A DNA stretch of 64,000 nt, taken from assembly GCA_015064155.1 (NCBI GenBank), contig SVST01000010.1:1-64000 (forward strand). The letters run 5' to 3'. Shown here one piece after another: positions 20,786 to 25,159 of this stretch. The translations under genes were made by a program, and so were the position numbers. Source of the DNA: Oscillospiraceae bacterium. GTDB lineage: Bacteria > Bacillota > Clostridia > Oscillospirales > CAG-272. Each line of letters opens with the position of its first letter. Within the stretch, counting starts at the first letter, position 1. The notes beneath the pieces are model-generated. The model did not search any database, was not told the origin of the DNA, and saw only the letters and a program-made list of their open reading frames with translations.

Positions 20786-20814
20786 ATTGTATCAAATTTT
20801 GTTCCAAATGTCAA
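20786..20814 (-). promoter_or_regulatory. Promoter of hydCBA operon
   Basis: Minus strand TTGACA-N17-TACAAT. Confidence 0.75.
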
Positions 20815-20939: not shown

Positions 20940-20968
20940 TTTACAAAGCGGCAAAACCGTGCTATACT
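20940..20968 (+). promoter_or_regulatory. Promoter of TM1266-hydEGF operon
   Basis: TTTACA-N17-TATACT. Confidence 0.75.
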
Positions 20969-20974
20969 GTAAGG

Positions 20975-21133
20975 GAACTCCTGACATTAAGCTGCGGCTG
21001 CGTGAAAGGTGCGAGTATAGAGAATCGGGAAAAGGCTTTTCGTCTTTTCCGTTTTGGCATACGGGTCGCATCCAAGGGAGCGACCCGTCTTTTTTTGACC
21101 GTTCCATCAAGAAACGGTCGGATCGGAGGAACC
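20975..21133 (+). ncRNA. Structured 5' leader with internal terminator (riboswitch/attenuator candidate)
   Basis: GGAAAAG..CTTTTCC hairpin, ACGGGTCGC-ATCCAAGGGA-GCGACCCGT-CTTTTTTT terminator (21061-21097), GACCGTT...AACGGTC hairpin, then SD and ATG 21134. Confidence 0.55.
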
Positions 21134-21391
21134 ATGGAAACAAGAGTTGCCGTGATGAGCATCATCGTGGAAAACAACGAAGCCGTAAACGAGATCAATT
21201 CCCTGCTTCACGAGTACGGAGAATATATCATCGGCAGAATGGGCATTCCCTATCGCAAGCGTGCGATCAGCATCATCAGCATTGCGCTGGATGCTCCGCA
21301 GAATACCATCTCCACGCTTTCGGGAAAGATCGGAAACCTTTCGGGGGTCAGCGTCAAAACCGCCTATTCGGGCGTGGGAGCCCATGCGTAA
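21134..21391 (+). CDS. TM1266-family iron-only hydrogenase system regulator
   Basis: METRVAVMSIIVENNEAVNEINSLLHEYGEYIIGRMGIPYRKRAISIISIALDAP..., adjacent to hydE. Confidence 0.9.
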   Translation: METRVAVMSIIVENNEAVNEINSLLHEYGEYIIGRMGIPYRKRAISIISIALDAPQNTISTLSGKIGNLSGVSVKTAYSGVGAHA

Positions 21392-22439
21392 GGAGCTTTT
21401 TGGGCTTGCCGACCGCCTTGCACGCGAGCATCGGTTGGAGCTTGACGAATACCGTGCCTTGATCGACGGACGAGCCCCCGAAATTACCGCCTATCTTGCC
21501 GATCTGGCTGTACAAGCGCGAAAAAGGATCTATGGGAATACGGTCTATATCCGCGGCTTGATCGAGATCGGAAACGTCTGTAAAAACGATTGTCTGTACT
21601 GTGGCATCCGCCGAGGAAATACAAGCTGTGAACGCTACCGACTCTCCCACGAGGAAATTCTTGCTTGCTGTCGCGAGGGATATACGCTCGGCTTCCGTAC
21701 CTTTGTTCTGCAAGGCGGCGAGGACCCCTTTTGGACCGACGACCGACTTTGCCTGTTGCTTCGAGCCATCAAGCAGGAGCACCCCGACGTTGCCGTTACG
21801 CTTTCCTTGGGGGAGCGAAGCCGCGAAAGCTATGCACGCTTGAAGGAGGCGGGAGCCGACCGCTACCTGCTCCGTCACGAAACCGCCGACGCAACCCATT
21901 ACGCAAAACTACACCCCAAAGAATTGTCCTTTGACAATCGGATGCGCTGTCTTACCGACCTCAAGTCACTCGGCTATCAGGTAGGCTGCGGCTTTATGGT
22001 GGGATCCCCCTATCAGACCTCGTCCATGCTCGCGCGCGACCTGCAATTCGTCGAGCAATTTGCGCCCGATATGTGCGGCATCGGACCGTTCATTCCGCAA
22101 TCCGACACCCCGTTTCGGCACGAGCCCGCGGGAAGCGCAGAGCTGACCTGCTATCTGCTTTCCATTCTGCGCTTGATCCGTCCCAATTTTTTGTTGCCTG
22201 CCACCACGGCACTCGGCACGATTCATCCGGGCGGACGTGAAATGGGCATTCTTTCGGGCGCGAACGTCGTCATGCCCAACCTCTCCCCCGCATCGGTGCG
22301 GGCGAAATACGCGCTCTACGACAACAAGCTTTCCGATGGGTCGGAATCTGCACAGTGCAAGGACGAATTGACACAGCGTATGCGATCAATCGGATACGAG
22401 GTGGTCACCGACCGCGGCGACGTCAAGCCGATACCCTAA
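21384..22439 (+). CDS. hydE: [FeFe] hydrogenase H-cluster radical SAM maturase HydE
   Basis: Radical SAM CKNDCLYCGIRRGN; FVLQGGEDPFW; start MRKELFG at 21384. Confidence 0.94.
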   Translation: MRKELFGLADRLAREHRLELDEYRALIDGRAPEITAYLADLAVQARKRIYGNTVYIRGLIEIGNVCKNDCLYCGIRRGNTSCERYRLSHEEILACCREGYTLGFRTFVLQGGEDPFWTDDRLCLLLRAIKQEHPDVAVTLSLGERSRESYARLKEAGADRYLLRHETADATHYAKLHPKELSFDNRMRCLTDLKSLGYQVGCGFMVGSPYQTSSMLARDLQFVEQFAPDMCGIGPFIPQSDTPFRHEPAGSAELTCYLLSILRLIRPNFLLPATTALGTIHPGGREMGILSGANVVMPNLSPASVRAKYALYDNKLSDGSESAQCKDELTQRMRSIGYEVVTDRGDVKPIP

Positions 22440-22486: not shown

Positions 22487-23944
22487 ATGGCAATCTATAA
22501 CCCCAAGTCCCTCAAAGCCGAGGAATTCATCTCGGATGCGGAGATCCGCGAAACACTGGCGTATGCCGAGGAAAACAAAAACAATCTCCCCCTGATCGAG
22601 GAGATCCTGGAAAAAGCAAGACCGAAAAAGACCGAAACGGGGCACGTCTGCATGGGGCTTACCCACCGCGAGGCATCGGTGCTTCTCGCCTGCGAGATTC
22701 CCGAGGTGATTGAAAAAATCCATGCAATTGCAGAGGAAATCAAGCTTGCCTTCTACGGCAACCGCATTGTCATCTTTGCGCCCCTGTACCTCTCAAACTA
22801 CTGCGTCAACGGTTGCGTATACTGCCCGTACCATCTCAAAAACAAGCACATTGCACGCAAAAAGCTGACGCAGGACGAAATCCGAGCCGAGGTCATTGCC
22901 CTGCAGGATATGGGACATAAGCGTCTTGCCATCGAGGCGGGCGAGGATCCCGTGCATAATCCCATCGAGTATATTCTCGAATCGATCAAAACCATTTACA
23001 GCGTCCATCACAAAAACGGGGACATCCGCCGTGTCAACGTCAATATTGCGGCAACCACCGTGGAAAATTACCGCAAGCTCAAGGAAGCGGGCATCGGAAC
23101 CTACATTCTGTTCCAGGAAACCTACCACAAGGAAAGCTACGAGCAGCTTCATCCCACGGGTCCCAAGCACGACTACGCATACCACACCGAGGCGATGGAC
23201 CGCGCAATGGAGGGCGGCATCGACGACGTGGGGCTGGGTGTTTTGTTCGGTCTTGAATTGTACAAATATGAGTTTGCGGGACTGCTTTTGCACGCGGAAC
23301 ACTTAGAGGCGGTTCACGGTGTGGGGCCGCACACCATCAGTGTCCCCCGCTTGAAGCGTGCCGACGATATCGACCCCGATCAGTTTGATAACGGCATCGA
23401 CGACGAAACCTTTGCAAAGATCACCGCCTGCATCCGTTTGGCGGTTCCCTATACCGGTATCATCATCTCCACGCGCGAAACCGAAAAGGTTCGCTCAAAG
23501 CTCTTGCGCCTTGGCGTGTCGCAGGTTTCGGGAGGCTCGCGCACCTCGGTGGGTGGCTATGCCGGCTACTCGGCAGAGGAGCGTCCGCACGATACCGAGC
23601 AGTTTGACGTTTCCGACCAACGCTCGCTTGACGAGGTGGTGCGCTGGCTGATGGAAAGCGGACATATTCCCTCTTTCTGCACCGCTTGCTACCGCGAGGG
23701 GCGCACGGGTGACCGCTTTATGAGTCTTTGCAAAACGGGACAGATCCTCAACTGCTGCCATCCAAATGCCTTGATGACGCTTTGCGAATATCTGGAGGAT
23801 TACGCGTCGCCCGAAACCCGTGAGATCGGTTACAAAATGATCGAGGAGGAGCTGAAGCGCATCCCCAAGGAAAAGGTGCGCGCCATCGCAGAGGAAAACA
23901 TCCGAGGCATTCGCAATTCCAACCGTCGGGACTTCCGCTTCTGA
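22487..23944 (+). CDS. hydG: [FeFe] hydrogenase H-cluster radical SAM maturase HydG
   Basis: CVNGCVYCPYHLKNK; C-terminal CTACYREGRTGDRFM...C. Confidence 0.95.
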   Translation: MAIYNPKSLKAEEFISDAEIRETLAYAEENKNNLPLIEEILEKARPKKTETGHVCMGLTHREASVLLACEIPEVIEKIHAIAEEIKLAFYGNRIVIFAPLYLSNYCVNGCVYCPYHLKNKHIARKKLTQDEIRAEVIALQDMGHKRLAIEAGEDPVHNPIEYILESIKTIYSVHHKNGDIRRVNVNIAATTVENYRKLKEAGIGTYILFQETYHKESYEQLHPTGPKHDYAYHTEAMDRAMEGGIDDVGLGVLFGLELYKYEFAGLLLHAEHLEAVHGVGPHTISVPRLKRADDIDPDQFDNGIDDETFAKITACIRLAVPYTGIIISTRETEKVRSKLLRLGVSQVSGGSRTSVGGYAGYSAEERPHDTEQFDVSDQRSLDEVVRWLMESGHIPSFCTACYREGRTGDRFMSLCKTGQILNCCHPNALMTLCEYLEDYASPETREIGYKMIEEELKRIPKEKVRAIAEENIRGIRNSNRRDFRF

Positions 23945-23959: not shown

Positions 23960-25159
23960 ATGGAACTGAATTCCACTCCCCGTGCCGAACGCTTGCACAT
24001 CGGCTTTTTCGGGATGCGAAACGCAGGCAAATCCAGCCTTGTCAACGCACTTACGGGACAAAGCCTTTCGGTGGTATCCGACATCAAGGGAACCACCACC
24101 GACCCCGTCAAAAAATCGATGGAGCTGCTTCCCTTGGGTCCCGTAGTCATTATCGATACCCCGGGGCTTGACGACGAGGGAGAGCTTGGCGAATTGCGCG
24201 TCAAGAAGGCATTGGAAGCCCTAACGGCTACCGATATTGCCGTATTGGTGGTGGACGCCTCCGAGGGTCTTGGGGAAACCGATCTCAACCTCAAAAAAGA
24301 ATTGCAGACACGCAAAATTCCCTTTCTCGTTGCCTTCAATAAGTCCGATCTGTGCAAAAAAGAAGCCTTGGTAGATGACAACGAGCTGTACGTCAGCGCA
24401 AAATCGGGAGAAGGCGTGGAGGAGCTGAAAAACCGATTGGGAGCCTTTGCAAAATCGCTGAAAAATCCAAATTACGTCGTCCGTGACCTCCTCTCGAAAA
24501 ACGACGTTGTGGTTTTGGTGACCCCCATCGATGAAGCCGCACCAAAGGGCAGACTGATCCTGCCGCAGCAGATGGTTCTGCGCGATATTTTGGACGCACA
24601 CGCGACCGCGGTGGTTTGTCAGGATACCGAGCTCTGTGAAACGCTGGCATCTCTCGCCAAAAAGCCTCGTATGGTCATCACCGACTCTCAGGTGTTCGGA
24701 AAGGTCGCAAAGGATACGCCGCGTGACGTTCCCTTGACCTCCTTTTCGATTCTCATGGCGCGCTATAAGGGCGACCTTGCCACGCAGGTAAAGGGCTTTT
24801 CCGCGCTGAAAGCCTTACGGGACGGCGACCGCGTGCTGATTGCCGAGGGCTGTACCCACCACCGTCAGTGCAACGACATCGGCACCGTCAAGATGCCGAA
24901 ATGGATTGAGGATTTCACGAAAGTCAAGCCCACGTACCGCTTTACCTCGGGCGGAGAGTTCCCCACGGACCTCTCCGAATACCGTGTCATCGTGCATTGC
25001 GGCGGCTGTATGCTCAACGAAGCTGCGATGAAGCACCGCGTTGCCTCTGCCGTGGCGCAAGCCGTCCCCATCGTCAATTACGGCATCGCCATCGCGGGGA
25101 TGCACGGAATCCTTGCGCGCAGCCTGGAGCTTTTCCCCGATATTTTGAAGTTGCTGTAA
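23960..25159 (+). CDS. hydF: [FeFe] hydrogenase H-cluster maturation GTPase HydF
   Basis: GTPase G1 GMRNAGKSSLVNA; cluster ligands CTHHRQCNDIG and HCGGCMLN. Confidence 0.95.
   Translation: MELNSTPRAERLHIGFFGMRNAGKSSLVNALTGQSLSVVSDIKGTTTDPVKKSMELLPLGPVVIIDTPGLDDEGELGELRVKKALEALTATDIAVLVVDASEGLGETDLNLKKELQTRKIPFLVAFNKSDLCKKEALVDDNELYVSAKSGEGVEELKNRLGAFAKSLKNPNYVVRDLLSKNDVVVLVTPIDEAAPKGRLILPQQMVLRDILDAHATAVVCQDTELCETLASLAKKPRMVITDSQVFGKVAKDTPRDVPLTSFSILMARYKGDLATQVKGFSALKALRDGDRVLIAEGCTHHRQCNDIGTVKMPKWIEDFTKVKPTYRFTSGGEFPTDLSEYRVIVHCGGCMLNEAAMKHRVASAVAQAVPIVNYGIAIAGMHGILARSLELFPDILKLL

Follow-up and report, generated by a model that had tools for sequence, protein, structure and literature searches.

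A predicted RNA attenuator with a conserved leader hairpin precedes [FeFe]-hydrogenase maturation genes in gut-type Clostridia

Several described leaders couple a small RNA structure to a decision between readthrough and termination. In pyr operons, the gene for the regulator is often the first gene and is followed by permease and biosynthetic genes. In the pyr attenuators that PyrR controls, the binding hairpin acts as an anti-antiterminator and is combined with an antiterminator and a terminator. The OFF riboswitches for purines, SAM (SAM-I), and FMN also govern biosynthesis and import genes, and in them a 5´ ligand domain shares a strand with the antiterminator ahead of an intrinsic terminator. 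The RAT hairpin of the BglG/LicT systems is about 30 nt long, has two internal loops, and adjoins a terminator. Compact leaders with terminators are also found in the guanidine-IV (GGAM-1) and thiS/HMP-PP riboswitches (PMC7736828, PMC6478431).

Little is known about how cells time the building of the H-cluster, and RNA-level control of hydrogenase maturation was not found in the literature surveyed. In this study, we analyzed the leader of a maturation operon in a 64,000-nt stretch of Oscillospiraceae DNA (hereafter the window) together with related leaders. Comparative computation reveals a conserved hairpin, pairings that compete with it, a promoter in a recurrent position, and consistent gene associations. 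On this comparison of sequences, the hairpin, the antiterminator, and the terminator probably make up a conserved three-state transcription attenuator for H-cluster maturation. The features of the window, all on the forward strand, are as follows.

20940-20968, forward: promoter TTTACA-N17-TATACT (-35 at 20940-20945, -10 at 20963-20968, TG immediately 5´ of the -10).
20980-21009, forward: putative sensor hairpin (anti-antiterminator), from the R1 covariance model match at 20979-21011 (47.9 bits), the 36-sequence alignment, and the subtype 2 alignment.
21008-21018, forward: predicted antiterminator 5´ strand, GGUGCGA plus GUAU, overlapping the 3´ strand of P1, from growing-chain folds and arm permutation.
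21028-21050, forward: linker hairpin GGAAAAG/CUUUUCC (arms 21028-21034 and 21044-21050), nested within the antiterminator.
21059-21073, forward: predicted antiterminator 3´ strand, AUAC...UCGCAUCC, overlapping the terminator 5´ arm, from growing-chain folds and arm permutation.
21061-21096, forward: intrinsic terminator ACGGGUCGC/GCGACCCGU with U-tract, from folds and from terminators in related loci.
21097-21119, forward: post-terminator hairpin GACCGUU/AACGGUC (arms 21097-21103 and 21113-21119).
21125-21129, forward: Shine-Dalgarno (SD) sequence GGAGG, with the ATG at 21134.
21134-21391, forward: TM1266-family gene (profile match, TIGR03959 and PF21699), first of the operon.
21387-22439, forward: hydE (TIGR03956, 552 bits).
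22487-23944, forward: hydG (TIGR03955, 907 bits).
23960-25159, forward: hydF (TIGR03918, 555 bits).

The promoter is of the sigma70 type, and reading its sequence predicts an RNA start at about 20975, which leaves a leader of about 160 nt before the ATG of the TM1266 gene. Promoter, start, and leader were all found where an earlier note on this DNA had placed them. The intrinsic terminator it had described inside the leader was confirmed as well, with arms ACGGGTCGC (21061-21069) and GCGACCCGT (21080-21088) and a T-run to 21096, that is, the GC-rich stem-loop and U-tract by which such terminators are recognized. The two accessory hairpins it listed are present in the window but are not kept in relatives: the GGAAAAG hairpin is not conserved among their linkers, which measure 13-107 nt, and in most of them the terminator is followed directly by the SD sequence. 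The segment at 20980-21009, which the earlier note quoted as sequence only, proved to be the conserved part of the leader. The operon that it called TM1266-hydEGF is indeed a maturation operon, whose order is to be given as TM1266-hydE-hydG-hydF. The neighboring operon, which encodes NuoE, NuoF, and a group A6 [FeFe]-hydrogenase, is divergent; its promoter (TTGACA-N17-TACAAT, 20786-20814, minus strand) is near-consensus, matching at 11 of 12 positions.

As a single sequence, the window leader folds only mildly better than its shuffles (z -1.6 and -2.1), so relatives were needed for comparison, and it is the promoter position, the hairpin covariation, and the terminators in related loci that establish the leader element as real. 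Chance alone will produce single promoter-like sites, which is the background for the window promoter; of 64 related leaders, 69% have a promoter upstream of the hairpin, whereas control positions gave 9%. Where a promoter is present, its -10 element typically ends 10-12 nt 5´ of the hairpin, and the transcript is therefore predicted to have the hairpin at its 5´ end.

The window hairpin, 30 nt long, is built of P1 (CCU/AGG), a GA/AA mismatch pair, P2 (CAU/GUG), a UA/GC mismatch pair, P3 (AGC/GCU), and a UGCG loop, with two 2x2 purine mismatches between the stems. Upstream regions were fetched from related genomes via TM1266, and a common core was found in them by eye and by regular expression: CTGACATTAAGCTGCGGCTGCGTGAAAGG in the window, and CTGACATAAAGGGCTTCGCCCTGAGGGAAAGG (UUCG loop) and CTGACATTAAGCGTAAGCTGTCTGAAAGG (GUAA loop) in other loci. 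The consensus is an irregular hairpin in which P1, GA/RA mismatches, P2, NA/GN mismatches, and P3 follow one another, and about 11 of its bases are near-invariant. P1 occurs as CCU/AGG, but also as UCU/AGA and GCU/AGC. In subtype 1, to which the window belongs, P2 has three base pairs, mostly CAY/GUG; in subtype 2 it has four (CAUC/GAUG, UACC/GGUA, CGUA/UACG, UAUG/CAUA, CACC/GGUG, and others).

A structure descriptor of this hairpin matched 76 of 189 upstream regions, compared with 0-1 in shuffled ones. The alignment of upstream regions that the earlier note had recommended as a check likewise yielded the hairpin, with stems that covary in both alignments made. In alignment A2 (36 sequences, picked by sequence regular expression only), 96.9% of the cells are paired, against 26-46% when the partner strand is slid, and 28 double changes contrast with 7.0 in shuffles. 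Alignment A4 (subtype 2) gave 93.9% paired cells, 57 double changes versus 16.9, and a covariation score of 0.67 versus 0.24; because a pairing descriptor was used to choose part of its sequences, this alignment leans towards structure, and A2 is the cleaner test of covariation. A MAFFT alignment in which both subtypes were mixed (A3) misaligned P1 and P2 and was dropped.

Some leaders depart from the common plan. In L060, an insertion of about 230 nt lies within P3, about 310 to 60 nt upstream of TM1266; its ends are complementary and extend P3 as a long helix, and the remaining sensor is intact. Two sensor hairpins in tandem, about 12 nt apart and before one terminator, were found by R2 in L317 (G434), and a similar pair ahead of one terminator was seen, by eye only, in L032 (G104); an automatic search for tandem copies returned none. 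Tandem sensor hairpins suggest cooperative or two-input control.

A terminator was called between the hairpin and the gene in 67 of 75 distinct related motif loci. From GAAAGG onwards, the leader is complementary to the terminator 5´ arm and loop of the same locus, as in GG-UGCGA/UCGCA(U)CC in the window, GGUACGGC/GCCGUACC in L110, and GGAUGCG/CGCAUCC in L010. Over 60 loci, pairing with the locus's own terminator arm averaged -13.5 kcal/mol, compared with -10.17 (sd 0.32) for permuted arms, and none of 10,000 permutations was as good; letter-shuffled arms of the same loci averaged -7.2. The 10 nt 3´ of the hairpin, tested alone, were also unequalled in 10,000 permutations. Because the 3´ strand of P1 belongs to the antiterminator pairing, the hairpin and the antiterminator are mutually exclusive, and so are the antiterminator and the terminator. 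An expression platform that excludes the conserved domain is what a riboswitch would have. When the window RNA was folded as a growing chain, the hairpin formed first (to 21011), then the antiterminator (at 21078), and then the terminator (at 21089). A conserved antiterminator, in competition with the hairpin on one side and the terminator on the other, thus gives strong support to the conditional readthrough suggested by the earlier note.

The proposed model would work as follows. The 30-nt hairpin would be transcribed first. Left free, it would give up its P1 3´ strand, which together with the bases that follow would pair with the terminator 5´ arm to form the antiterminator, and RNA polymerase would read through into TM1266-hydEGF. 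If an effector binds the hairpin, as we infer, and stabilizes it, the antiterminator would be blocked, the terminator would form, and transcription would stop. From the overlap of the strands, the attenuator is predicted to be an OFF switch, which probably means feedback control.

Covariance models of subtype 1 (R1) and subtype 2 (R2) were run on 295 genomes of the order and gave 49 places at E<=1e-3, three of them at contig ends. All 46 strong matches with readable context precede TM1266 (42), hydE (2), or hydG (2), and while the model seeds include some of these loci, G118, G216, G351, G140, and G327 lie outside them. The hydE-first contexts, without TM1266, are those of G327 and G128; hydG comes first directly in G216, and with an acetyltransferase gene between in G119. 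Genomes typically carry one strong copy. For E values from 1e-3 to 1e-2, roughly one in three R2 matches looks unrelated. Of the 295 genomes, 131 carry hydE, so the element is common in hydE carriers without being universal; many genomes with TM1266 and hydE have no detectable motif, and attenuator control is therefore not universal either. One copy was found outside the order (G771), and the element is common to dozens of gut-type Clostridia of many genera. A strict IUPAC pattern was too narrow, returning 3 copies only over 391 genomes of the class. Weak second sites in L164, L346/L347, L348, L349, and L350 and sites at coding starts in L315 and L323 were judged false, and the site in G194:C17, which lies at a contig end, repeats the leader sequence of TM1266.

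The motif stays with hydEGF when TM1266 is elsewhere. In G327 and G128, hydEGF keeps the motif and TM1266 is located elsewhere without it, and in G182 and G156 the arrangement is motif-hydE-hydG without TM1266. The TM1266 gene of G327 lies away from hydEGF (L228 3299-5998), downstream of genes for a hydrogenase and a Rex-like redox repressor, the latter assigned by sequence judgement.

The motif also heads operons that encode importers. In six genomes (G126, G105, G118, G231, G074, and G425), the order is TM1266, FecCD, FecE fused to a TM1266 domain, in some cases hydE, a NifH-like protein, nitrogenase-component-1-like proteins, and FecB, not all members being visible at each locus. This operon has the look of an undescribed nitrogenase-like system with its own importer. 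It was seen at L315 (572-8458), L324, L325, L326, and L327, with two Oxidored_nitro proteins. In G140 (L351 607-3014), the motif heads TM1266 and an SsuA/NMT1-type ABC importer, and this 100%-complete genome has no match to hydE. A homologous importer in G308 (L316 2556-4945) has a weak motif copy (25.2 bits) and a terminator. In L085, too, an SsuA/NMT1-type ABC importer is part of a TM1266 operon with the motif. At about seven loci (L040, L044, L052, L054, L059, L064, L066), a number that does not estimate frequency because loci were fetched by TM1266, the motif and TM1266 are directly followed by a membrane protein of about 180 aa; two of three tested (L040 and L064) matched the ECF S-component PF12822 above the Pfam cut-off, and the L052 protein had no match. 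As in a riboswitch, a structured 5´ UTR domain is conserved across related metabolic and transport genes, and importers and biosynthesis under one element are the usual signature of small-molecule control.

That promoter-like and terminator-like strings came together by chance, with no regulatory role, is scarcely credible; single-sequence z-scores are weak and promoter-like sites are common by chance, but such an assembly is ruled out by stems that covary, by the permutation test, and by the recurrence of the gene association in many genera. It is also improbable that the leader is a constitutive or polarity element whose terminator insulates the operon and whose hairpin protects the mRNA 5´ end. 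Although 5´-end hairpins can stabilize mRNAs and the neighboring operon is divergent, the promoter of the operon itself is 5´ of the terminator, and the terminator 5´ arm and the bases that follow the hairpin covary, a pairing that insulation does not need. An attenuation of the leader-peptide or T-box type, with the fold decided by translation or a tRNA, could draw on the terminator/antiterminator pair and on the use of tyrosine by HydG. However, an SD sequence with a short ORF precedes the terminator in only 5 of 66 leaders, the linkers have no conserved ORF, a few nt separate the hairpin from the predicted start of the RNA, and Rfam gave no T-box match in the window leader or its relatives, so that attenuation of this kind is highly improbable.

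A switch that responds to a metabolite, to redox state, or to Fe-S, as first proposed, is plausible. The most likely effector, in our tentative ranking, is a small molecule tied to H-cluster assembly or its uptake and sensed directly by the RNA. The importer operons headed by the motif (FecBCDE, SsuA/NMT1-type, ECF S-component) support direct sensing, as does the fact that no TM1266 residues track the presence of the motif or separate the proteins of motif carriers from those of non-carriers; against it, the hairpin has a simple structure by aptamer standards and would be a suitable site for a protein. A possible but second-ranked effector is the TM1266 protein, which might bind the hairpin, perhaps only with that small molecule, and tip the leader towards termination, in the manner of PyrR in pyr operons. 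Of 46 unbiased contexts, 42 begin with TM1266, irrespective of the genes that come next, and, by counts that ignore kinship, none of eight hydE genomes without detected TM1266 has a motif match and all motif genomes checked carry TM1266. The size of the hairpin and its two internal loops resemble protein sites, and the TM1266 of G327 and G128, although located elsewhere, could act in trans. On the other hand, TM1266 is common without the motif, and its domain is also fused to a FecE-type ABC ATPase, for which the regulatory domain of MetN offers a comparison; such a fusion suggests ligand sensing rather than RNA binding. Another effector, or none, is unlikely. If direct sensing by the RNA is correct, a more specific and more doubtful version of it is a putative riboswitch class that binds a small molecule or an organometallic or metal complex specific to H-cluster assembly. 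In some genomes, FecBCDE-, ECF-, or SsuA-type systems would take this molecule up; proteins of the TM1266 family would bind it too, and it would link [FeFe]-hydrogenase maturation to the undescribed nitrogenase-like/Fec-importer system.

An attenuator ahead of hydE, hydG, hydF, and TM1266 provides a testable handle on H-cluster assembly, and its effector would reveal what the cell monitors. By bringing the maturases together with importers and a nitrogenase-like system, the regulon points to a metabolite that they share, and it offers an initial hypothesis on what TM1266 does. Among gut-type Clostridia, where hydrogen production matters, carriers are common. The proposed RNA attenuator family is new within Rfam 15 and the literature surveyed, and the earlier note's statement that such a switch would be new holds within these bounds. 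No relevant paper in that literature combined a riboswitch with hydrogenase maturation or the H-cluster, and the word "hydrogenase" is absent from the RNA-motif surveys of 2010, 2019, 2021, and 2024; the hairpin could be among the gut RNA motifs of Fremin 2021, thousands of which are unnamed, with its function unassigned. The earlier note had found the leader unlike known riboswitch classes, and cmscan agreed, with no Rfam 15 family above its gathering threshold in the window leader or eight relatives; the sub-threshold matches (E<=10 search) were all terminator-like, the best being ctRNA_pT181, at 28.9 bits against a cut-off of 56. Both outcomes that would have spoken against the proposal, homologous operons without the leader and a match to an Rfam family, were looked for, and neither was found.

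Each of the described systems shares part of this design. The guanidine-IV and thiS/HMP-PP riboswitches differ in structure and genes and gave no cmscan match at E<=10. In contrast to RAT, where the hairpin is itself the antiterminator, the window hairpin overlaps the antiterminator, and no Rfam match was obtained. The OFF riboswitches are alike in architecture and in the kinds of genes they control, although the candidate aptamer in the window, one irregular hairpin, is far simpler than theirs and matches no family. The TM1266 family (TIGR03959/PF21699, PDB 2nzc), annotated as a putative regulator of the iron-only hydrogenase system and encoded here by the first gene, is a protein, whereas the RNA element also occurs where the operon is without TM1266. 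The pyr attenuators (RF00515) control other genes, and neither in sequence nor in structure was their PyrR binding loop matched in the window leader and its relatives; RNA binding by TM1266 is putative. They nevertheless share with the leader described here the logic of a hairpin that, as an anti-antiterminator, would decide between an antiterminator and a terminator.
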